Below, one piece after another: positions 4,956 to 20,691 of a stretch of DNA of 20,692 bases. Position 1 is the stretch's first letter; each line of letters opens with the position of its first letter. Origin of the DNA: a virus; the IMG/VR virus record IMGVR_UViG_3300024344_000159, positions 1 through 20,692 of that record. One strand, given 5' to 3'. The position numbers were made by a program, and so were the translations under genes. The notes beneath the pieces are model-generated. The model was given only the letters and a program-made list of their open reading frames with translations, ran no database searches and was not told where the DNA came from.

Positions 4956-5657
4956 ATGAATGATCAGCAACGTGAAATTGTCCGAGACTACATTAGTAGC
5001 CAACATAAAAGATGCAGCCAGCATCTCCGATCTCTAGGGCTTCTGAACAACAACGGTACTCTTCCCCGTTCTGAAGGCTCTCAAATCAACCTAGAAAGGT
5101 GGTTCTTCGACGCCATCAATTCTGACAACTACATCCTCTACAGCACTGACGCTGGTGGCGTTGAGGCCAGTTTAGAAATCGGCAGCTTTGACAGTTCCAG
5201 CGGCAACCCGGTGATTTTCGAGTTCGATGCTGCCGCATGGCCGGACTTGCTAGAGGAAGCCGTGCTGGTAGAAGTTGACGACGGTGTAGCCAATGGTACG
5301 GGCTGGGCAAAAGATGCCGAGCCGAGCATTTTCGTTGACATTTGTGGTGAGAGTCGCAATGAGTCTTACAGAAATATATTTGTCAAAAAAGATGATGGCG
5401 CAATCAATGATTTGCCCGGTATGGACTTATCTCAGTACGGTGGCCCAACAGCACTTCAAATTCTTGTCTGGAAGTTAATCGAAGATGAAGAAAAGAATCT
5501 TTTACAAGCGGTGCTTCAGTATGGAGCTAATTTGATTGATCTCAACGAAGACGGCCAACCTACGGCTGAATCTTACGCTGAAGCCAAGAAATGGTTTGAC
5601 CAGAATGGTCTTACTGAAAGACTCACCCGAATCGCTCAATCAGGAGTAATGAAATGA
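4956..5657 (+). CDS. Hypothetical acidic protein
   Basis: I choose ATG 4956, preceded by GAGGA at about 4942 in a leader like those at 1069 and 4144. The frame is open upstream to 4689, but that part covers the terminator tail and the repeat cluster and is low-complexity. The 233-residue product is acidic and soluble. It has glycine/serine-rich strand-forming segments in the middle (VEASLEIGSFDSSSG) and a helical C-terminal third. No catalytic motif or known family is recognised. It is the first gene of the second early unit, next to a candidate promoter. Confidence 0.7.
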   Translation: MNDQQREIVRDYISSQHKRCSQHLRSLGLLNNNGTLPRSEGSQINLERWFFDAINSDNYILYSTDAGGVEASLEIGSFDSSSGNPVIFEFDAAAWPDLLEEAVLVEVDDGVANGTGWAKDAEPSIFVDICGESRNESYRNIFVKKDDGAINDLPGMDLSQYGGPTALQILVWKLIEDEEKNLLQAVLQYGANLIDLNEDGQPTAESYAEAKKWFDQNGLTERLTRIAQSGVMK

Positions 5658-5881
5658 TTTTTGGATTGGACATTAATTTTAACCCAGGTTACGCAGACTC
5701 CATTATCAAGCATTGTCATGACACAGGCATGAATGAGATGGAGTCTTGGCTACATCTCCTTACTGCTGCCGCTGCATTGTGTCCTAAGAAAGAAATGAGC
5801 CAAACTGCGATATCGATGATTTATGACGCTGGAGAAGAAGCTCAACAAGTGGAAAATCAAGGGGAATACAATGAACATTGA
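5654..5881 (+). CDS. Hypothetical small protein
   Basis: A 75-residue protein coupled to the previous gene through an ATGA overlap, with AGGAG about nine bases upstream. It looks helical, with a mid-segment WLHLLTAAAALCPKKEM and an acidic end. No motif is recognised. Its last codons overlap the start of the next gene. Confidence 0.6.
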   Translation: MIFGLDINFNPGYADSIIKHCHDTGMNEMESWLHLLTAAAALCPKKEMSQTAISMIYDAGEEAQQVENQGEYNEH

Positions 5882-6188
5882 TGAATACGACTTCAAAACC
5901 AAAGTGGGGACGGGCACAACCGCTTCACTTGAGGGGTTCGACGCGCTCGCCACCGTGGTTAGTGGTGGTGAGCTTGATTTAAGAGTGGTTGAACTAAACG
6001 AAGACCACCTATCCACCATTTGGTATCTAATTGTTCATGCGCTTCTTGATCGCGGAGAAGAAGTTAAAACCTCCAATCCTGAGTTCCCACTGACCAGCGA
6101 GAACGATTTACCTGATTTCAAATTGGAATTCGTTGAAACATCCTCGCTGCAAGAACTGCTGGAAATTTGCCGTCAAATAAATCCGTAA
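5871..6188 (+). CDS. Hypothetical small acidic protein
   Basis: ATG 5871 is preferred over an in-frame ATG at 5823 because AAGGGGA lies at the right distance before it and the longer form would sit inside the previous gene. The 105-residue protein is strongly acidic and probably alternates strands and helices. No family is recognised. The gene overlaps its left neighbour by 11 bases. Confidence 0.6.
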   Translation: MNIDEYDFKTKVGTGTTASLEGFDALATVVSGGELDLRVVELNEDHLSTIWYLIVHALLDRGEEVKTSNPEFPLTSENDLPDFKLEFVETSSLQELLEICRQINP

Positions 6189-6970: not shown

Positions 6971-8706
6971 TAGTCTAAGTCCCAATCAAAATCCTCTTCT
7001 GGTATATCGCTGAACCTGCCAGAAGCGACATCGTATTGCAGTTTTTGCTGACCTCTCTTGGCGACCCAAGGAAACCGAGCTTTCCAAATATTCACAATAG
7101 GTGTGTGATCGTTGGGATCAGATGTTCTAAAAAGCGAGCAACCGACATCGGCCTTTGCCAGCCAACTAGCCGAACCAGAAATCGAGTTGCCATCGAGAGG
7201 GCGCGCTTGAGAATCGTAAGGAATTTTCGTTGGGTGAGCGCAGAAGAATGTGGACAATGAGTGGCTTCGAGAAAACTGAATAGTTCTGCTCAACATCTCT
7301 GAAATCCCTAAATGCTCATTCTCATGCTTACTCTCCAAGAAATTGTAGGGATCAATTACTAGACCCCTAGTGCCTTGTCTAAGGATCGATGAGGCAGTTC
7401 TATCTAAGATACTTTTTAAGGTTGCAACCTCACCATCTCGATTCTCCAGAAACGAGAAATGATTGTTGATCCATTTGATGGCGTCTTGCAATTCATCTTT
7501 GCTCATTCGCTCAGTCGGCCCCTCAAAAAAAGGCTTCCCAGTGTGTAAAGCTGCGAGCTTCAAGATGTGGATTTTCACGGGGTTTTCCATCGAACAGATG
7601 GCCCACCTCATGCCGTGAAGCCTTGCTGTATTTACCATGACTGCATCGATCCAGGCCGATTTACCATGACCGGGTGAACCTGTGACCACATACAAACCTG
7701 GAGCGATGGTAATAAGGTCATCAAGAGAATCGAAACCAGTGCTTAGACCCTTACCAGTTCCACCGGCCTCATATAGTTCGTGAACCTCATCGCTATAATC
7801 AGAGGCTCGGTAGACTCCAGCCAGCGGCATGGGGGTAGCGGCCTCAATAATCTCTTTTAGACGCCCTGGCCCCTCGGCACATAGCACAGCGTTGGAGTCT
7901 TTTAGTTCAGCACTGAACCGCACTTCCCAGCATTTACCTAACCCGACACGCCTTCCTATCTCTTGTTTGAGAATATCTCCTGGCCCATCGTGGTCGGTAG
8001 CTAGAATTATTTTGCTACAGGTCTCTAAGAGTTTCCTTGATTCCCAGAGGTATCCAAATTTAACTCCATCATCGTTACGCACAAATTTTGCCGGAGCACC
8101 ATTGGGGACACTCACGGCGGGTATGCCGATTGACGCAAAACTCAAAGCGTCGATTTCGCCTTCACAAATCACTAAAGGGGTCTCACTCATGTCTTCTGGC
8201 AGATTCTCTAGCCCGTAAAACGTTTTAGCAGCACCAGTTTGAGTGAATGCCTTACCCTTAATAGAACGCCACTTTACTGCGCTTGGAGCCTCTCGATCAC
8301 CATATACAAAACCCACGGCTAATTGCTCGCCTTCAGTTTTATTGAACCAGCGGGTGTCTGTCACAACCCCATATCGTTTGTAAGTCTCTTCAGAGATAGA
8401 CCTAGAGGCCATAAATTCTCGAAGTTCTCTATCGCTAGTAACCTGCGGCATTTCGATCACGTTACTGGAAGAAGAAGTTGTACTTAAAAAATCTTCTAGC
8501 AAATCAGCATCAGAAGACGAAATCTTTTTTTCTGAAAATTTGCCTGACGCATCGCAATGAAAGCAATGGTAGATTTTATGGGGGCCATCTATCTTAATGG
8601 ACAGAGTTTTTTCTTTTGATTTTTTTCTGGTATCTGAGCAGGCGGGACACAAAATTCTTGTGTCTTGATAGCAGTTCATTACTGCCAGTTCGATATCTTG
8701 AATCAT
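6970..8706 (-). CDS. Fused TOPRIM primase / DnaB-like helicase (T7 gp4-type)
   Basis: The 578-residue protein has the three parts of a phage primase-helicase. An N-terminal zinc ribbon uses C20, C23, C48 and C51. A TOPRIM primase domain has E182-G-E184 followed by TDHDGPGD with D238 and D240. A RecA-fold hexameric helicase has Walker A GSPGHGKS (343-350), Walker B LVIDPYNF with D452, and H491 in CAHPTK. It should unwind DNA at the fork and lay down RNA primers. All key residues are present. The start is backed by GAGGAG upstream on the minus strand. The gene follows RusA by 27 bases, forming a short leftward operon. It is well matched in length to the T7 gp4 class (about 566 residues). No DNA polymerase gene is in the window. 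Confidence 0.95.
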   Translation of the reverse strand: MIQDIELAVMNCYQDTRILCPACSDTRKKSKEKTLSIKIDGPHKIYHCFHCDASGKFSEKKISSSDADLLEDFLSTTSSSSNVIEMPQVTSDRELREFMASRSISEETYKRYGVVTDTRWFNKTEGEQLAVGFVYGDREAPSAVKWRSIKGKAFTQTGAAKTFYGLENLPEDMSETPLVICEGEIDALSFASIGIPAVSVPNGAPAKFVRNDDGVKFGYLWESRKLLETCSKIILATDHDGPGDILKQEIGRRVGLGKCWEVRFSAELKDSNAVLCAEGPGRLKEIIEAATPMPLAGVYRASDYSDEVHELYEAGGTGKGLSTGFDSLDDLITIAPGLYVVTGSPGHGKSAWIDAVMVNTARLHGMRWAICSMENPVKIHILKLAALHTGKPFFEGPTERMSKDELQDAIKWINNHFSFLENRDGEVATLKSILDRTASSILRQGTRGLVIDPYNFLESKHENEHLGISEMLSRTIQFSRSHSLSTFFCAHPTKIPYDSQARPLDGNSISGSASWLAKADVGCSLFRTSDPNDHTPIVNIWKARFPWVAKRGQQKLQYDVASGRFSDIPEEDFDWDLD

Positions 8707-13432: not shown

Positions 13433-13561
13433 ATGGGGAAGGGAAGCAAACAAAGACCAGCAGATAAAAAGCGTTTTGATGAAGGGTTTGACCGGATATT
13501 CGGCAAGAAGCCAACAAGCCACAAAAAATTAAAGAAAAAAGATACAAAAGCTCCAATATGA
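13433..13561 (+). CDS. Conserved phage microprotein, 42 residues (GKGSKxRP...FDRIFG)
   Basis: ATG 13433 follows GAGGAG (13416-13421), with TGA at 13559-13561. The sequence MGKGSKQRPADKKRFDEGF followed by DRIFGKK matches a tiny, highly conserved phage family I recognise by its GKGSxxRP and FDRIFG motifs. Function is unknown. The rest is a lysine-rich tail. The stop overlaps the next ATG (13558) as ATGA. Confidence 0.82.
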   Translation: MGKGSKQRPADKKRFDEGFDRIFGKKPTSHKKLKKKDTKAPI

Positions 13562-14049
13562 CTCCAATCGTTAAAAAAGCACTCGGCTGGCTTCAGAAAA
13601 AAAGCAACTTTGTACGACTCTACAACATCGACGTTTCTCAAGACCCTGTGAGACCTGAGCTAAGTCTCAGGTGGAGAACTTCATTTAATAGACAAATTTA
13701 TGGTCTAAAGCAGGGTGATGAAGTTCAAGCGGTTGTTTGTTTGGCATTTACCAACGATGTGCCTCACACAGTGCGTGAATTAGACTTGATGAGTAGAGTC
13801 AGCAAGTACGAGAAAAATGCAGACATTGCTATCGCCTATACCGTTTGGAGTAACAAAAAAGGGGTAGGTGCTGGTAAGCAAATAATGAAAGAAGTGCTTG
13901 AGTACGCAAAAGCACAACATTTGCAAAGAGTTGTCACACTAAGCCCTTTAACACCACTGGCAACTCATTTCCATATCAAATGTGGAGCAAAGTTGATTTC
14001 TCTTAATTCAACTACCCAAAACTTTGAATACAGAATTAGAAAGAATTAA
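13558..14049 (+). CDS. GNAT-like acetyltransferase of a marine-phage type
   Basis: The 163-residue protein has a GNAT-like core: a strand IAIAYTVW, then NKKGVGAGKQIMKEVLEYAK in the position of the acetyl-CoA binding loop and helix, then RVVTLSPLTPLATHFHIKCGAKLI and a closing NFEYRI. I recall close patterns in marine phage genomes. The substrate is unknown. The acceptor could be a host or phage protein. It is the last gene of the rightward operon and meets the leftward cyclase gene with only 13 bases between. Confidence 0.72.
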   Translation: MTPIVKKALGWLQKKSNFVRLYNIDVSQDPVRPELSLRWRTSFNRQIYGLKQGDEVQAVVCLAFTNDVPHTVRELDLMSRVSKYEKNADIAIAYTVWSNKKGVGAGKQIMKEVLEYAKAQHLQRVVTLSPLTPLATHFHIKCGAKLISLNSTTQNFEYRIRKN

Positions 14050-14062
14050 AAGTGTCAACCCT

Positions 14063-15901
14063 TTAGGATTTTCTTTCACTAACCCAATACTCAGCAAGAC
14101 GAGCCGCAGCTATCGCATCAGGAGACAGCGTGTAAACGCTCAGTTTCTCGCTCTTGCCCTTCACTTCGATTGAATCCAGATGCTTAACCATATCAGGAAC
14201 CTCTTGAGCCGTAGCCTCTCCGATCAATACATCATCATCGTATTTTCTAGTGCTGGACTCTAACCTGGCAGCAACATTCACCGAATCACCGATAGCGGAA
14301 TAGTCAAATCGCTTGTCTCCCCCGACATTGCCAATAACGCAGGGGCCAGTGTTGACTCCGATGCCAATGCCTAGCCTGGGCAATCCTTCTGCTTCTATTT
14401 CTTTGTTCAGTTCTTCCAATGCCACCAACATCATTGCGGCACAAGTCACTGCCCGTTCTTGATGGTCTTCACAGTCAACTGGTGCGCCCCAGAACGCCAT
14501 CACGCAATCGCCCATGTACTTGTCTATCGTTCCATCCAGCGATAGCACTACATCTGTCAATGCTGAAAGCAGTCTGTTGATAAGAGTCACTAACCCTTGG
14601 GGATCGTTGTTATTCTTGAAATGCTCTGAGATGGGGGTGAAGCCAACGATGTCGCAAAAGAGGAAACTTAATGTCTTGGTATCACCACCTAATCTCATCA
14701 GGGAAGGGTCATCCACCAACTGCTGTACTAATTTTGGGGAGACATAAGTGCCGAACATCCCTTTTATCTGTAACTTCTGTCGATATTCAGAGATCATTCT
14801 TTGACCAACCCCCACCGACCCGATGGTAAGGCTGCAAAGAACAGGCCATGCCGCATCCACCAGAATACCAAGTCTCAGGTAGCCTAAGACCGATCCTGTT
14901 GCTGTAAGAGCGCCTACAACAACAATTCCTAGTGGAACACTCAATACAGGCAAACGGCTTGCAGAGAAGGCTGTGAGCAGTCCTATAACTAATATCAGCA
15001 AGACCTCTCCACCTAAAGCCCAATCTGGGCGAACAGGTGAGGTTCCAGCCAATAAAGTCTCGAAAAGTGTCGCTTGAATTTCGTGGGGATACATCAGCCC
15101 CCGTGGAGTAGGTACTAATGGAGTTACCCCTGCTGCTGTCACACCGACAAAGATGATAGTACCTTCTGTCGGTTGCTGGGCAAACGTGGTTCCCCAATCA
15201 ACCCAGACCCTTCCTGCTGCATCAGTATTGATGGTATCGAAGTTAGGCACTCTAACCGCTTCTATGCCTGTCTCAGAGCCTCTGACTTGGTAGGAGGGGT
15301 CTCCGGCTAGGCCACGCAGGACATCCAGCCCAAGGGCCGGATACAGGCTCTCCCCAACCCTCACCACCATCGGCACACGTCTGACTAGCCCATCGACCTC
15401 TGGGGCCGTGTTAACTATGCCCGTACCGATAGCCGCCTCTTGCAACACAGCGACATTTGGCAGGATGCCAGGGTAATTGATAGCACTCTCATTGACTTGT
15501 CCTATCGTGGCTACACCTATGTGCCAGCCGTCTTGCCGATCTGTGCTGGTTGTAGCTACTGCTGAAAGAAATGTTGGTAGTTCATTCATGCTCTGAGCAA
15601 ACTCAGCATCACCACCAAATCGGTCTGTTTCGGGGAATAAAACCGAATACACAACTGCCGCTGCCCCTGAATCGAGAAGATAACGGTTAAGCTCTGCAAG
15701 TTGCTGCCGGGGCCAGGGCCACTGACCGCCCTCGGCTAATGCGGCTTCGTCTATGTTGTAAAGGGATATGTTCTGGCTTTGAACTGGCTCGCTAATCGTG
15801 AGCAGAGCATCAAAATACTTGAGTCTCAGAGTTTCTACAGGCCAAGGATCGACAACACGAAGAAGCAATAATCCAGCCAGCAAAGCAAGTAATACCTTCA
15901 A
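14063..15901 (-). CDS. CHASE2-domain class III adenylate cyclase (membrane)
   Basis: The 612-residue protein has an N-terminal membrane helix (3-17), a periplasmic CHASE2 sensor domain (about 20-295), three membrane helices (about 298-314, 320-340, 347-367) and a cytoplasmic class III cyclase domain (about 405-595). Catalytic residues are present: metal ligands D417 (FCDIVGFT) and D465 (YMGD), adenine-selecting K461, S535 at the second adenine position, and N542 and R546 in GDSVNVAARLE. It should therefore make cAMP from ATP in response to an envelope signal. It is coupled to the gene before it by an ATGA overlap and ends the leftward operon that also carries curli-type genes. Such cyclases are common in bacteria, often near FecR proteins, and unusual in a phage-like setting. 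Confidence 0.93.
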   Translation of the reverse strand: MKVLLALLAGLLLLRVVDPWPVETLRLKYFDALLTISEPVQSQNISLYNIDEAALAEGGQWPWPRQQLAELNRYLLDSGAAAVVYSVLFPETDRFGGDAEFAQSMNELPTFLSAVATTSTDRQDGWHIGVATIGQVNESAINYPGILPNVAVLQEAAIGTGIVNTAPEVDGLVRRVPMVVRVGESLYPALGLDVLRGLAGDPSYQVRGSETGIEAVRVPNFDTINTDAAGRVWVDWGTTFAQQPTEGTIIFVGVTAAGVTPLVPTPRGLMYPHEIQATLFETLLAGTSPVRPDWALGGEVLLILVIGLLTAFSASRLPVLSVPLGIVVVGALTATGSVLGYLRLGILVDAAWPVLCSLTIGSVGVGQRMISEYRQKLQIKGMFGTYVSPKLVQQLVDDPSLMRLGGDTKTLSFLFCDIVGFTPISEHFKNNNDPQGLVTLINRLLSALTDVVLSLDGTIDKYMGDCVMAFWGAPVDCEDHQERAVTCAAMMLVALEELNKEIEAEGLPRLGIGIGVNTGPCVIGNVGGDKRFDYSAIGDSVNVAARLESSTRKYDDDVLIGEATAQEVPDMVKHLDSIEVKGKSEKLSVYTLSPDAIAAARLAEYWVSERKS

Positions 15902-16164
15902 TGTACGTCATACTCCCACCATTGAATGATCGCAGACCACGGTATGACCATCGGTGTATTAATAACGTCAGGCTGTTTCTCGTAAATATCAGTCGATAAA
16001 ATTAAACATTCTTCATTGTCTTTGGATATAACATACCCCACCGTTGATCGTAGGACAGGAAGAAGTTCCATTGCTTCTTTCATCGTAACATCCTTTGTAT
16101 CAACCCAAGCATCTTCCCAAATGACCTGCGCTATTTTATGCCTTGCAATAAAGCTATCTACCAT
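15898..16164 (-). CDS. Small conserved phage-type hypothetical protein
   Basis: The 88-residue protein has KIAQVIWEDAWVDTKDVTMKEA, then TTVGYVISKDNEECLILSTD, then MVIPWSAIIQWWE. That is a pattern I associate with small phage proteins of about this size (WEDAW, VGYxxxxD, ending in IPxxxI). It is probably a small beta-rich fold of unknown role. It overlaps the gene on its right by 7 bases and is coupled to the cyclase by ATGA, tying the cyclase into a phage-type gene series. Confidence 0.7.
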   Translation of the reverse strand: MVDSFIARHKIAQVIWEDAWVDTKDVTMKEAMELLPVLRSTVGYVISKDNEECLILSTDIYEKQPDVINTPMVIPWSAIIQWWEYDVH

Positions 16165-16463
16165 TTAATTTTATCTGACCAAAAAGCGGCAGACATCTTT
16201 CCTTTCTTGATGTTCTTGCCATGCCTTGCCTTAAAAGACTTACGTCTGGCTTTCTGCTTGGCTGACTCTCCAGCTTTTGGTTTGCCAGCGGTCTTGACTC
16301 CCTGCTGGCCGAACCGAATGGTCTTAATCTTGTCGCCCTCTTTTGCCACAACAATGTGAGATTTCTTGGGGTGACTAGGAGTGCGCTTTGGCTTATTAAA
16401 ACCAGCAACACCAGCCCTGGCTAAACGCGGGTCTTTTTTGCTTTTACGCTTTTTTTCGGGCAT
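16158..16463 (-). CDS. Basic protein, DUF6321-like
   Basis: A 101-residue, strongly basic protein. Its pattern DPRLARAGVAGFNKPKRTP, SHIVVAKEGDKIKTIRFGQQG, then RKSFKARHGKNIKKGKMSAAFW fits a family I recall as DUF6321 from marine phages and metagenomes. AGAGGA precedes the start on the minus strand. It overlaps the gene on its right by 20 bases. A structural or nucleic-acid-binding role is inferred from charge only. Confidence 0.82.
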   Translation of the reverse strand: MPEKKRKSKKDPRLARAGVAGFNKPKRTPSHPKKSHIVVAKEGDKIKTIRFGQQGVKTAGKPKAGESAKQKARRKSFKARHGKNIKKGKMSAAFWSDKIKW

Positions 16464-16701
16464 TTTTAGTCCTCTTGAATGATCTGTTCTTAGCCTTGGA
16501 AGTTACCTTCAGGTTGCTGGCCTTCTTGTTTTTAGGGTTGCCATCTTTGTGATGAACGTCCTTGCCATCGCCTTTTGAGACCCTACCTTTCTTTTTCATC
16601 GAAGCACGACTAGCATTCCTAGCAGTGCGTCTTTTTTTCTGCTCTTCTTTGCCTTGATAATTATCGTATTCCTTACGGTAATTTCGTTTTTTCTTTGGCA
16701 T
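16444..16701 (-). CDS. Basic protein with partial HNH-like motif
   Basis: The 85-residue, lysine/arginine-rich product contains DVHHKDGNPKNKKASNLKV near residues 48-66. This resembles the central HH...N...N strand-helix of HNH nucleases and of marine-phage small basic proteins. No zinc cysteines and no full HNH length are present, so nuclease activity is uncertain. It starts at an ATG that shares a base with the stop of the gene on its right (TAATG). Confidence 0.7.
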   Translation of the reverse strand: MPKKKRNYRKEYDNYQGKEEQKKRRTARNASRASMKKKGRVSKGDGKDVHHKDGNPKNKKASNLKVTSKAKNRSFKRTKNARKKA

Positions 16702-16952
16702 TACTTTCCAGCCTTCCTGTATTTACGGGTTTTTTTGGCTATCTTCTTAGGTTGTTTGCTGACTTTTTTGCCCTTCTTAGTATCTTCTCGTTTTTTTCGA
16801 GTAGTTGCAGCGTACTCTTTAGAAGATAACGCTTTTATTGCAGCACTTGGTAAGTACCTTTCACCCGTCTTGGCTGAAGGCTTACCGCTTTTAGTACGCC
16901 ATTTCTGCTTTGTCCAAGACTTTAGGGACTTTTGAGATTTCTTGAGAGCCAT
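16701..16952 (-). CDS. Basic protein, DUF5872-like
   Basis: ATG 16952 is chosen over one four codons earlier because it makes a TAATG junction with the upstream stop and gives the family start MALKKSQKSLKSW. The 83-residue protein continues with KQKWRTKSGKPSAKTGERYL, then AIKALSSKEYAATTRKK and a lysine-rich end, matching the pattern I know as DUF5872. It is common in marine phages, with unknown role. About a third of residues are lysine or arginine. Confidence 0.82.
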   Translation of the reverse strand: MALKKSQKSLKSWTKQKWRTKSGKPSAKTGERYLPSAAIKALSSKEYAATTRKKREDTKKGKKVSKQPKKIAKKTRKYRKAGK

Positions 16953-17134
16953 TACTTGCGCCAACTGTTCTTAGCTTTTTTCTTAGCAGTCTTGCCCAAA
17001 TCACCGTAATGAAAAATAGGCTTGCTGGTTTTAGTGTGTGTTTTGTTGGTATGCAATGCACCATCAGACATCTTGTGATATGAACCTGTCCATTCCTTAC
17101 CGTCTTTCAGATAATGTTTTACATTCATTCCCAT
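16952..17134 (-). CDS. Small basic phage protein (MNVKHYxKDGKxxTG type)
   Basis: The 60-residue product begins MGMNVKHYLKDGKEWTGSYH, continues KMSDGALHTNKTHTKTSKPIF and ends lysine-rich. I recall this as a marine-phage pattern. GGAGG lies nine bases before ATG 17134. The in-frame ATG at 17128 would give the family-typical MNVKHY start. The first base of the frame is shared with the upstream stop codon. Unknown function. Confidence 0.75.
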   Translation of the reverse strand: MGMNVKHYLKDGKEWTGSYHKMSDGALHTNKTHTKTSKPIFHYGDLGKTAKKKAKNSWRK

Positions 17135-17325
17135 TATTTATAGCCTCCACCTTTTGCTTTGTACTCTTTAGCAAGCATTTGAGCTTTTCTAGCCGACCAT
17201 TGACCTGCTTTGCCACCTTTTGTGCCTGCTTTAATCCTATTAAAAAGATTTTTTCTCATAGTAGGCTTTGTATAGTTACCAGCCTCATTTACTCTTGACT
17301 TAGCTTTGCTTTTTTTCTTTGGCAT
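17134..17325 (-). CDS. Small basic phage protein (NYTKPxMRKxLFNRIKAG type)
   Basis: The 63-residue protein has SRVNEAGNYTKPTMRKNLF, then NRIKAGTKGGKAGQWSARKAQMLAK and YKAKGGGYK. It is a distinctive small family in marine phages by my recollection, very basic and probably nucleic-acid-binding. A G-rich stretch serves as ribosome site eight bases from the curlin stop. It is the first of five tandem basic genes after the curli genes. Confidence 0.8.
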   Translation of the reverse strand: MPKKKSKAKSRVNEAGNYTKPTMRKNLFNRIKAGTKGGKAGQWSARKAQMLAKEYKAKGGGYK

Positions 17326-17333
17326 CTTGCCCC

Positions 17334-18119
17334 CTAGTCAAACTGGTTCACAGTGACTGTTTTATTACAGCTAGAAGTACAATCTAATACTACCGTATAC
17401 GCCTTAGCACTCACCCCTGTCTGAGTCGCGTTTACAGTGTAATCCCCTTGTTTCACAAGAATATTCCCAGCGTGTGCACCGTCACCACTTTGCGTTAAGT
17501 TGACCGTGGAGTTGTCAGCAGGATTGTTGCGGAACTCAATATCCCCATCTTTCGCGCCACTACCGCTCTGGGTAATGGTCGCATCATTGTTGTTACAATT
17601 ACCACAACTCTTAACATAGGCATTATGGTTTCCAGAACCTGATTGCGTAGCAGTCCATGTGCTGTCATCCCCAAAAGCATAGAATTTGGCGTAGTGATTG
17701 CCTGTGCCTGTTTGCGTAATGGTGTACACGTTGTCATCGCCACTCATGTATATCTCACCATGCTTATCGTTACCCGTCTGAGTAACCGTCATCTCGTTTG
17801 AGTCCTGGTCAGCATCTATGTAGCCAGTATTGTCGTTGCCGGTCTGATTAATTGTATATTCATTTGCCGTGTGATTGGTGTACTGAGAATACGCCTTGGC
17901 AAGATTGTCATCACCATTCTGGTCAATATCGATGGTCGCGCTTGAACAGGTGTGTGTTGTATAGGTTCCGTTTGATAGCCCACACCATACGCGAGCGGTA
18001 TTGCCCGACCCGATTTGGTCAATGTAGATACTGGTATTTGTCCCTTTGGTATCTATTTCCACAGAGTTGTTAGCAGCAAAAGCAGAGAAGCTAATTAGAC
18101 TGATTAATATAAATCGCAT
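17334..18119 (-). CDS. Curlin-repeat amyloid subunit (CsgA/CsgB-like), ten regular repeats
   Basis: ATG 18119 follows GGGAGG and gives a clean signal peptide (MRFILISLISFSAFA); an ATG five codons earlier is not used. The mature part of the 261-residue protein is a chain of curlin repeats with the conserved glutamines at 35, 67, 92, 114, 136, 159, 184, 210, 233 and 259, spaced 22-32 and mostly 22-26 residues, in forms such as IDQIGSGN, INQTGNDN and ITQTGTGN. It ends VTVNQFD, a truncated last repeat. In curli, each repeat is one strand-turn-strand of a beta-solenoid amyloid. Cysteine pairs (46/58, 172/175, 247/251) are extra to classical CsgA. It overlaps the FecR gene by 29 bases. It should be exported to the periplasm and then through CsgG. 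Confidence 0.92.
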   Translation of the reverse strand: MRFILISLISFSAFAANNSVEIDTKGTNTSIYIDQIGSGNTARVWCGLSNGTYTTHTCSSATIDIDQNGDDNLAKAYSQYTNHTANEYTINQTGNDNTGYIDADQDSNEMTVTQTGNDKHGEIYMSGDDNVYTITQTGTGNHYAKFYAFGDDSTWTATQSGSGNHNAYVKSCGNCNNNDATITQSGSGAKDGDIEFRNNPADNSTVNLTQSGDGAHAGNILVKQGDYTVNATQTGVSAKAYTVVLDCTSSCNKTVTVNQFD

Positions 18120-19170
18120 TATCGCCTCCCCCATTTACTTCTGCCTGTATCTTCACACCAGCAGTCATAATATCAATTTTGTAAGGAGAGCCTTTGTCTA
18201 GTTCTAGGTCAATCGTATTTTCTACATTTCTTACAAAAAAGAGACTAGGCCCATCGGTAAAGGTGTACACCTGTAACTGCTGGTCAAAACCAGGAATCAC
18301 GCCTTCTATTTCGACACCATCCATCTCATAGACTTTCGCTTGCTTTCTTGACTCAGAGACTTGAACCAGCAGATCACCAAGGAAATCGGCTGCAAGCAAG
18401 TCGATGTCTAGTCTTCCCATGTCTTCTTCAAGCGCATCTTCCTCCAATTCATTGTCTTCCAACGCATCTTCTTCGAGTAAGTCTACGTCCAGAATATTAG
18501 TGGCTGTGCCGCTTTGCTCATCCACCGCCTCTTGTATCTCATCCGGCGGGTTTACGATAAGTAAATTATTCAGGAAATTCAAAGTCATGTTCTGAAGAAG
18601 AACGGGTGGCGTAGGGGGCGTTTCCGATACCGTAACCGCAGTAGCCTGCCAAGGCTCGTTCATGACAACCTCGCCAGCCATTGAAGTAACTACAATTTCT
18701 CCAGAAGACTCTCCGTTCTCATCCGGCAAAAGGATCACCATTGTTTCGCCAATCTCAGACACATGAGTAGTGAAGTCAGTACCTCGAATAGCGATAGTCG
18801 CCACAGGAGTCCTGATGTTGATGTTCTCTCGGTTAATACGACCTAAAGCTCCTGTCAGAAACCGAGCAGTACCGGAGGCCATATTGAGCGCCAAGCGACT
18901 TCGAGAAGGGTCAGGGTCAAAAACAAAGTCATCAATAACGATGCTGGAACGCTCAGTCAGGCTTACAGTGCTGTCATCCAGGAATGTAATGGATAACCTG
19001 CCGTTACCAGTTCTGACATTATCCATGCTGGCTATGCCAAGCTGTAACGCAGCAACTAAGGAATCATCAGAGTCCTCACGAAGCACCTCACCGATACCGC
19101 GTAGCTCAGAAATAGATCCAACTTGAGCGTTAGCTACAATCGGCAGGAATATCAGCAGCCACTTACACAT
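18091..19170 (-). CDS. Secreted FecR-domain protein with curlin-like C-terminal tail
   Basis: A signal peptide (residues 1-15) leads a FecR domain (about 17-167) with VGSISELRGIGEVLR, a GNGRLSITFLDDSTVSL strand pair and the signature TPVATIAIRGTDF (121-133). An acidic repeat region (227-256, LEEDALE units) and a second strand-rich domain follow. The last residues, GGGDNAIYINQSN, look like half a curlin repeat. FecR domains in the envelope act in signal relay or bind surface polymers. The ATG overlaps the upstream curlin gene by 19 bases with no clear ribosome site, so coupling is likely. Proteins of this kind often neighbour CHASE2 cyclases, and one lies downstream in the same operon. Confidence 0.88.
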   Translation of the reverse strand: MCKWLLIFLPIVANAQVGSISELRGIGEVLREDSDDSLVAALQLGIASMDNVRTGNGRLSITFLDDSTVSLTERSSIVIDDFVFDPDPSRSRLALNMASGTARFLTGALGRINRENINIRTPVATIAIRGTDFTTHVSEIGETMVILLPDENGESSGEIVVTSMAGEVVMNEPWQATAVTVSETPPTPPVLLQNMTLNFLNNLLIVNPPDEIQEAVDEQSGTATNILDVDLLEEDALEDNELEEDALEEDMGRLDIDLLAADFLGDLLVQVSESRKQAKVYEMDGVEIEGVIPGFDQQLQVYTFTDGPSLFFVRNVENTIDLELDKGSPYKIDIMTAGVKIQAEVNGGGDNAIYINQSN

Positions 19171-19865
19171 TGATCAATATCAATCACGCCGCCAGTTGTC
19201 ACAGCTATTATGTCAACAATCCCGCTGGTTGATCCAGATGCATGGGTCTGGTCTATGTCGATATTGTTGGTTGAACCTGTAATGTCTGCCGTGATGCTAC
19301 TTGATGCATTTCCGGTCTGAGTTGTATCTATATCGTTACTTGAGCCGTCCACATCCCAGTTATTTACACCACTCACCACCTCACTTACGATGTTCAGATT
19401 GTTGCTCGTTCCGGTCACCACGATGTCTGTATTGCCGCTGGTTGCCGTCGCTGCTGCGCCCTGCGTATAGCTCAATACATTTGAATCGCCAGTAGCAGCA
19501 AAGTCAAAATCGGTAGATTGGACATCACCGGACGCACCCAAGGCTAGTGTCTGCGTATTGGAATCACCTGTGCTTCTCAAAGTGAAGCTGGTTGAGTTAG
19601 CCTGTGCCGCAGTCATCGCAATGGTGTTGCTGTCACCTATCTGATCTATGTCAGCCGTAAGCGAAGTACCTGTAAGAGAGACCCTTGCGCTGGTGGTTCC
19701 AACCACGTTGGAGTTGCCTATCTGGTCGATATTAAGGGTCAGGGCTGTCGAGCCGCCAGATTGAGTCAGATATATGCTGTTGTTGGCAGCATTAGCTGAA
19801 ATGAAATAGGCAAGTGAATACAAAAGAAACAAGTAAACAAAGCAGCTTTTAATCAGTAATCTCAT
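19152..19865 (-). CDS. Degenerate curlin-repeat protein
   Basis: ATG 19865 is supported by AAGGAG seven bases upstream and by the signal peptide it creates (residues 1-26, cut near SANA). The longer frame to 20087 is inside csgG. The 237-residue product has repeats every 21-27 residues that keep the turn TGDSN/IGNSN but often lack the glutamine: LNIDQIGNSN (44), ADIDQIGDSN (71), FTLRSTGDSN (94), FDFAATGDSN (120), DIVVTGTSN (147), WDVDGSSN (170), ITADITGSTN (191). The end is IDIDQCVSGC with two cysteines. It may be a minor, nucleating or cap subunit beside the more regular protein at 17334. It overlaps csgG by 17 bases. Confidence 0.85.
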   Translation of the reverse strand: MRLLIKSCFVYLFLLYSLAYFISANAANNSIYLTQSGGSTALTLNIDQIGNSNVVGTTSARVSLTGTSLTADIDQIGDSNTIAMTAAQANSTSFTLRSTGDSNTQTLALGASGDVQSTDFDFAATGDSNVLSYTQGAAATATSGNTDIVVTGTSNNLNIVSEVVSGVNNWDVDGSSNDIDTTQTGNASSSITADITGSTNNIDIDQTHASGSTSGIVDIIAVTTGGVIDIDQCVSGC

Positions 19866-20691
19866 TCTGAACTCCTTGTGGGGTGTAGTCCCACATATCC
19901 TGCTGAATGCCTTGATGCACCAGTTCCAGAACTGCCGCTTCAATGGCACTTCTAACTGCATAGGTCGCAGTCTCGTTTCTGGCGGCTCCTGCTTCAATCT
20001 CCACAAGTTCAGTACCGCCAGTTTCTGTAAATATAAAGGTATCAAAATTAGTCGCTGTTGAATATATCTGCTTGCTGGTAATGACATTCAACAACACCTG
20101 TCCCGTTTGCACGAGAATGGCCCTCAGAGCCACTGTAACCTCATCCACTCGGTACTGTGCGCTTGCACCTATACCCAAATAACGCGCCCCTGCGCCGCCA
20201 CTCAGAAGGTTTGTGTCGTAACCAATGATGCCACCAGCCAAGATCAATCCAGAAAATAGCAGAGGCTCTAACTGATTAGCGCCCTCTCCATCATAATTAT
20301 TTCGTGTTGAAATAATAAGCTGTCGTTCTCTGGTCAAAACATCAAGATTTGCGCGTTCTGCAACGAGAAACCACTTACCATTACCCGCTGCCATTAGTGC
20401 ATCTATAAGGAAGCTGTCTGCCCCCTGGGTTACGGCAGTGCTGAATAAAGCCATGTTATCGGCTGTAGCTCTTTGCCCTGTTTGATCTGCAAAAGAATAA
20501 ACGCTCACGACAGCTTTTTGACGTGGCATAGCAAGGTTTTGCAACTCAGTAAGGGTTGGTCTCTCTATCCGTGGCTCAGGTGAGCAATAATTACTTAAAG
20601 TTCCACAGCGATAGGGATCAACACTCACACATCCTGAGACTGTGAGTACCAAAGCGCATAAGGCTAAAGCGCGCACTCGTCTGTACTGCAA
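19849..20691 (-). CDS. csgG: CsgG-like curli secretion lipoprotein (start uncertain at right edge)
   Basis: The protein has a lipoprotein signal (LALCALVLTVSGC, lipobox VSGC), then VVSVYSFADQTGQ, FSTAVTQGADSFLIDALM, KWFLVAERANLDVLTRERQLI, LILAGGIIGYDTNLLSGGAGA, RYLGIGASAQYRVDEVTVALR and QTGQVLLNVITSKQI. It follows E. coli CsgG (277 residues) along its whole length. CsgG forms a nine-subunit outer-membrane channel that secretes curlin. The first possible start here is a TTG two bases from the window edge (280 residues). A GTG at 20676 would place the lipid cysteine at residue 16, as in E. coli. The gene may also begin outside the window. It is the first visible gene of the leftward operon. Confidence 0.93.
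   Translation of the reverse strand: MQYRRVRALALCALVLTVSGCVSVDPYRCGTLSNYCSPEPRIERPTLTELQNLAMPRQKAVVSVYSFADQTGQRATADNMALFSTAVTQGADSFLIDALMAAGNGKWFLVAERANLDVLTRERQLIISTRNNYDGEGANQLEPLLFSGLILAGGIIGYDTNLLSGGAGARYLGIGASAQYRVDEVTVALRAILVQTGQVLLNVITSKQIYSTATNFDTFIFTETGGTELVEIEAGAARNETATYAVRSAIEAAVLELVHQGIQQDMWDYTPQGVQNEITD

Follow-up and report, generated by a model that had tools for sequence, protein, structure and literature searches.

A phage-borne curli module in which the FecR-domain protein ends in a curlin kernel

The window analyzed here is the whole of IMG/VR virus record IMGVR_UViG_3300024344_000159 (20,692 bases), which lacks end repeats and is therefore probably a fragment. Its minus strand carries a gene block that we identify, with very little doubt, as a phage-borne curli (type VIII secretion system [T8SS]) module. 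The genes for CsgG, a first curlin-repeat protein (curlin 1), a FecR-domain protein, and a second curlin-repeat protein (curlin 2) overlap head to tail by 17, 19, and 29 bases; behind curlin 2 lie six short genes, of which most are basic and one is HNH-like, and a CHASE2 adenylate cyclase gene ends the block. The initial annotation of this DNA had recognized the four overlapping genes on one strand and a run of basic genes 8 bases behind them, and both observations were borne out: CsgG, FecR, and curlin 2 score above their Pfam cutoffs, curlin 1 falls just below with support from its AlphaFold2 (AF2) model and its conservation, and exactly 8 bases separate curlin 2 from the first of the basic genes (at 17325). 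Its limits for the block, 17334 to 20691, enclose the four genes correctly but fall short of the end, since the module runs on to the cyclase and, as its relatives suggest, extends beyond the contig to csgF. The module genes differ from their nearest relatives with ratios of nonsynonymous to synonymous substitutions (dN/dS) of 0.01 to 0.07, which indicates that they are real and constrained. The principal features are the following:

19849..20676, minus strand: csgG; GTG start (TTG at 20691 possible); the contig stops about 16 bases beyond its 5' end
19152..19865, minus strand: curlin 1, 237 amino acids (aa), with a signal peptide and degenerate curlin repeats; C terminus IDIDQCVSGC
18091..19170, minus strand: FecR-domain protein, 359 aa; PF04773 (E = 4.1e-11), AF2 model, and Foldseek comparison
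18100..18135, minus strand: FecR C-terminal tail NGGGDNAIYINQ, residues 346 to 357; curlin kernel N-x-psi-x-psi-x-Q
17334..18119, minus strand: curlin 2, 261 aa, with a signal peptide and several curlin repeats; C terminus NKTVTVNQFD
14063..15901, minus strand: CHASE2 adenylate cyclase, 612 aa; PF05226 (E = 3.5e-36) and PF00211 (E = 6.2e-21)

CsgG matches PF03783 with 160.7 bits (E = 3.9e-47; cutoff, 20.8), is 47% identical to a Caulobacteraceae CsgG and 37% identical to that of Escherichia coli K-12, and is a lipoprotein by its LTVSGC lipobox, the cysteine of which is invariant across the alignment. csgF immediately precedes csgG in close relatives (PF10614, E = 2.5e-17, in relative L004); the window contig stops at csgG, which, judging from these relatives, is why csgF is absent from it. 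Neither csgC nor csgD was recognized. Curlin 2 matches the Curlin_rpt profile in four stretches with 53.8 bits (E = 1.8e-14; cutoff, 20.7) and the NCBIfam CsgA model below its cutoff (E = 5e-12), and it contains 6 curlin kernels versus 0.9 expected after shuffling. Curlin 1 reaches 19.1 bits with the Curlin_rpt profile, slightly under the cutoff. The fold prediction that had been proposed as a check yielded, for this protein, a beta-rich, solenoid-like model of stacked short strands (mean predicted local distance difference test score [pLDDT], 86.5), and its Gln, Asn, and Gly columns are invariant across 44 relatives, as its position in the module is conserved. The cyclase has its class III catalytic residues in place, namely, the metal ligands D417 and D465, the adenine pair K461 and D533, and N542 and R546.

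The FecR protein consists of a Sec signal, the FecR domain (residues 50 to 140), an acidic linker modeled with low confidence (201 to 277), a beta-rich C-terminal region, and the terminal kernel. PF04773 (43.6 bits; cutoff, 24) is the only Pfam family to score above its cutoff. Foldseek matched the model of the FecR domain to the FecR/PupR-type domains 4m0h and 6ovk, and sequence searches of the PDB with two profiles retrieved nothing. Like the phage FecR proteins in general, it starts with a signal peptide, here of the Sec type, and no N-terminal anti-sigma domain was found with Pfam; the layout of FecR-type regulators, in which a cytoplasmic anti-sigma domain and an inner membrane helix precede the FecR domain, is thus not seen.

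The tail of this protein equals the curlin kernel N-x-psi-x-psi-x-Q as defined in PMC10192328; the E. coli nucleator CsgB has the C terminus AIRVTQR. All 100 FecR proteins with intact ends finish in psi-x-psi-x-Q (or H) followed by 0 to 3 residues, and the same psi-x-psi-x-Q/H ending is shared by all 92 curlin 2 proteins. In its strict form, the kernel is present in 98/100 FecR and 74/92 curlin 2 proteins and in 0/508 control open reading frames (ORFs), and curlin 1 has psi-x-psi-x-Q near its end in just 5 of 88 cases. In the nonredundant phage set, entropy is zero at N346, G347, G349, I353, I355, and Q357, while A352, Y354, and N356 vary; this alternation of invariant and variable residues is, as read from the alignment, the pattern of a beta strand with one buried face. 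A curlin-repeat position matrix finds its best match at the C terminus in 80 of 89 FecR proteins, with a median score (12.3) near the 99th percentile (12.7) of controls and shuffles, which is supportive rather than decisive. The kernel ending is absent from the few complete alphaproteobacterial FecR-domain proteins outside curli operons. As a separate observation, alphaproteobacterial FecR domains akin to those of the phages (loci L115 to L138) often lie inside open frames of 800 to 6,900 codons; the placement in such long frames suggests that the domain may be a general surface protein module and not a regulator.

The initial annotation had proposed to list gene order in sequence collections; the order csgF-csgG-curlin 1-FecR-curlin 2-cyclase recurs in 43 loci on IMG/VR contigs. 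In all 55 phage loci that extend far enough upstream, one or two membrane proteins of about 90 residues are encoded directly before csgF; the two bacterial loci lack them. These small proteins belong to phrog_18771, show weak similarity to a holin (phrog_4898) and to YvrJ, and have no Pfam match to a HisKA or HATPase kinase domain up to an E value of 1; by position and number, they appear to be the genes named histidine kinase in the account of the module in PMC9599517. Endolysin, Rz, and Rz1 genes (PHROGs) lie upstream of the module in L004, and Rz/Rz1 spanin genes, in some cases accompanied by endolysin, occur just upstream on the same strand in about ten loci, which places the module of those loci in or beside the lysis operon. 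This neighborhood favors late expression and, in part, the idea of lysis timing put forward in the passage of PMC9004378 on these genes, but the conservation of the curlins and of the FecR tail speaks for a fiber product.

Taken as a whole, the locus is best explained as a late phage curli module with FecR as a secreted part of the fiber, a reading to which we assign a probability of roughly 60%. A secreted fiber component, be it anchor or nucleator, is probably the better description of FecR than a regulator because it has a terminal curlin kernel and a signal peptide and no anti-sigma domain was found in it. The module would be expressed late, together with the lysis genes; a CsgF/CsgG outer membrane pore would then export curlin 1 and curlin 2, which are predicted to fold as beta-solenoids of the curlin type at the surface of infected cells. 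The FecR domain might be held at the cell surface while its C-terminal kernel templates or anchors the fiber, by analogy with CsgB of E. coli, and the CHASE2 cyclase could signal the state of the envelope via cyclic AMP. The likeliest benefit would be an amyloid coat, formed late and anchored at the surface, that binds cells or debris to one another or keeps other phages out; we propose any single benefit with considerable reserve. Adhesion, biofilm, receptor masking, and superinfection exclusion, the roles suggested in the initial annotation, would likewise be no more than candidates. A tentative generalization is that the FecR proteins of the phages and of some bacteria are a dedicated nucleator-anchor, with a surface FecR domain, a flexible linker, and a seeding kernel, which in the phages might have been wired into the lysis operon such that amyloid is made at lysis. 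Marine viral data are rich in phage curli modules, and the published proposals for them (iron regulation, pinholin, and sibling capture) conflict. The FecR tail predicts that FecR lies inside the fiber and anchors it, and the position near lysis genes predicts late expression; both predictions would help in choosing among the proposals, and together the tail and the lysis context question two published readings. If true, this would add a type of CsgB-like anchor that is also present in some bacteria.

Several observations weigh against this interpretation. Fiber formation is a prediction from the AF2 model and the repeat content, and a Foldseek search of the PDB returned no significant fold match for curlin 1. 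A search for CsgE detected none, and the curlins have no obvious N22-type signal. The AF2 model of FecR is mediocre (mean pLDDT, 67.8; predicted template modeling score, 0.50), the resemblance of its FecR domain to the cell surface anchoring domain 5ix9 is weak (E = 0.014), its tail amounts to just one half-repeat, and the corresponding tail in Caulobacteraceae, VNGGGTIINVTQD, is a poor match to the curlin matrix. Late expression is deduced from position: a promoter scan gave fewer matches than chance, so that no promoter was assigned, and it is relatives, rather than the window, that show the lysis genes and csgF. Cultures of the myophage Melnitz did not clump, according to the portion of PMC9004378 concerned with them, though its genome has the same six genes.

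The terminal kernel might instead be an export or docking signal for CsgG/CsgF, with FecR a cosecreted passenger and not a nucleator. The shared ending of all 92 curlin 2 proteins would fit such a signal, as would the lack of an obvious N22-like segment in the curlins and the link between repeat R5 of CsgB and CsgF binding (PMC10192328). Curlin 1, however, mostly ends otherwise, such that a C-terminal code would not be common to all substrates, and we regard this explanation as unlikely.

A second possibility, proposed for Melnitz in the corresponding part of PMC9004378, is that the CsgG/CsgF pore now serves, in a pinholin- or secretin-like manner, to time lysis and that fibers are irrelevant. 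The location of the module after endolysin, Rz, Rz1, and the small membrane proteins in several podovirus-type relatives speaks for it. Yet a pore alone would have no need of the curlins and the FecR tail, which are under strong purifying selection and kept in nearly all loci, and the proposal rested on a Melnitz without curlins, whereas the deposited record annotates two. This makes it distinctly unlikely.

We consider it improbable that FecR regulates the module in response to iron or to the envelope, the role proposed by Wittmers et al. in 2022 in the section of PMC9599517 that deals with it. The PF04773 domain and the fold match to domains of FecR/PupR anti-sigma regulators are consistent with that role, but the protein has a signal peptide, and a cytoplasmic anti-sigma domain was not found. 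No extracytoplasmic function (ECF) sigma factor, TonB receptor, or siderophore gene was recognized among the module genes of the window, which ends upstream of csgG. The universal terminal kernel common to FecR and curlin 2 likewise argues against regulation, as does the placement of fecR between the two fiber subunit genes in phages and beside them in bacteria.

The tail might also have been kept solely through its overlap with the start and signal peptide of curlin 2, given that the last 29 bases of fecR lie in curlin 2 and that a G-rich stretch could be the curlin 2 ribosome-binding site. Against this, amino acid entropy is 0.76 in the FecR frame versus 1.48, about twice as much, in the overlapping curlin 2 frame, and the third codon positions of the tail are the most variable (1.04), with positions 1 and 2 constrained (0.40 and 0.49). 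Moreover, the curlin 2 start varies between ATG and GTG while the FecR tail is unchanged, and in one locus (L108) the overlap is absent and the motif is kept. An overlap artifact is thus mostly rejected by frame entropy, free wobble positions, and L108, and has very little probability left; the comparison of frames argues that the tail is under selection at the protein level. That the window is a piece of bacterial chromosome, carrying ordinary curli genes and wrongly binned as viral, can be dismissed despite the related operon in two Caulobacteraceae metagenome-assembled genomes (MAGs), as genes of phage type (helicase, primase/helicase, RusA, exonuclease, and Sak-like) are present in the window, its relatives are virus contigs, one of which encodes terminase, portal, and capsid proteins, and hundreds of viral contigs carry relatives of the module's FecR, in keeping with the phage-type genome originally claimed.

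The initial annotation had taken this gene set to be undescribed in phages, a claim that did not survive comparison with the literature. csgF and csgG were reported in pelagimyophages in 2020 (PMC7029224), and the relevant passages of Wittmers et al. 2022 describe, for pelagiphages of both podovirus and myovirus type, a module of CsgF, CsgG, curlin, FecR, a second curlin, and adenylate cyclase, parts of which were detected at all 65 ocean stations examined and in metatranscriptomes (PMC9599517). As far as their pertinent passages go, PMC7029224 and PMC9004378 cover the set partially; in the latter, csgF and csgG of Melnitz were reported and csgA and csgB were said to be missing. The deposited Melnitz record (L003; MZ577095.1) contains two curlin-repeat proteins, at 5265 to 5984 and 7043 to 8059, flanking FecR. 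The window is thus a further member of the described phage curli module, from a lineage that, judging by relatives, is related to HTVC023P/HTVC027P. It resembles the pelagiphage T8SS module, as presented in PMC9599517, in the csgG-curlin-FecR-curlin-cyclase order, in its occurrence in marine phages, and, as far as relatives show, in its affinity to the podovirus members of the HTVC023P type; it differs in belonging to a lineage with 46% GC and in having small basic and HNH genes between curlin 2 and the cyclase. Our account departs from that presentation in reading FecR as a fiber component, in the pre-csgF genes being without a detectable kinase, and in the lysis neighbors of several relatives. 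The FecR terminal kernel, the pre-csgF membrane proteins and spanins, and the Caulobacteraceae operons go beyond the passages of the earlier papers that concern the module.

Among the myophages, HTVC008M and Melnitz have the same six genes in identical order, and their FecR proteins end in ITINQTN and VTIIQIN, respectively, the same type of kernel as in the window. In contrast, they are 141 to 147 kb in size, their csgG, FecR, and cyclase are 34 to 47% identical to those of the window, and no endolysin or spanin gene was recognized directly upstream. With csgBAC/csgDEFG of E. coli, the module has in common CsgG (37% identity), CsgF (in relatives), curlin repeats, and the presence of two curlins; it differs in the addition of FecR and the CHASE2 cyclase, in larger and more degenerate curlins, and in that csgE was not detected. 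The same gene set, in the order csgF-csgG-curlin-curlin-FecR-CHASE2 cyclase, is found in the two Caulobacteraceae MAGs (L023 and L024), with a FecR that is 39% identical over nearly its full length and has a kernel-like tail. Unlike the phage module, this operon is chromosomal (it lies among bacterial genes on contigs 32 and 83 kb long), has FecR after both curlins, and lacks the small membrane proteins and lysis genes. Of 249 sampled members of the family, 2 have it, and among 385 genomes of the class it was found only in the query genome; a search with full-length FecR across Alphaproteobacteria retrieved only these two MAGs, the other matches being to the FecR domain alone.

The assignment of the window to the HTVC023P/HTVC027P-related lineage is made through the structural genes of relatives and is qualified accordingly: the window fragment is without terminase, portal, and capsid genes, and in the 56.8-kb contig L013 these are 54 to 58% (terminase), 43 to 45% (portal), and 61% (capsid) identical to those of HTVC027P and DSL-LC04. 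The replication genes of HTVC027P differ from those of the window. GC content is 46% in the window versus 34% in the HTVC008M locus, from which it follows that the host is not necessarily SAR11. The suggestion that infected cells might be lysogenic found no support, as no integrase was found in nine records (the window and eight relatives), all of which may be fragments. One scan of marine viral data returned at least 580 FecR relatives. Pelagimyophage-type FecR and cyclase genes with phage-like neighbors also occur in contigs binned with a Flavobacteriaceae MAG (L025; NZAX01000026.1) and a Pirellulales MAG (L026; JADHSL010000081.1), which are probably misbinned phage contigs.

The module is mosaic across 14063 to 20676: csgG through curlin 2 are 93 to 98% identical to L004, and L013 is the nearest match (92 to 99%) for most basic genes and for the cyclase (96%). 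The combination of an L004-like segment with an L013-like cyclase suggests that recombination has occurred inside the module. The six genes between curlin 2 and the cyclase are as follows:

17134..17325, minus strand: small basic protein, 63 aa, phrog_17747; some relatives have it after curlin 2 and ahead of the cyclase, others behind the cyclase
16952..17134, minus strand: small basic protein, 60 aa; L013 counterpart 92% identical
16701..16964, minus strand: small basic protein, 87 aa, phrog_14910
16444..16701, minus strand: small HNH-like protein, 85 aa; PF13392 (HNH_3), E = 4.2e-6
16158..16463, minus strand: small basic protein, 101 aa, phrog_7595
15898..16164, minus strand: 88-aa protein without a Pfam match; adjoins the cyclase in L009, L010, L013, L014, and L017

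The presence and position of these lysine-rich small proteins (phrog_17747, phrog_14910, and phrog_7595) and of the HNH-like gene vary among relatives, and the cluster from 15898 to 17325 may be a mobile or hypervariable insert. Beside the cyclase, a 163-aa ORF (13558 to 14049) without a PHROG or NCBIfam match is 93 to 96% identical in relatives and looks GNAT-like by eye.

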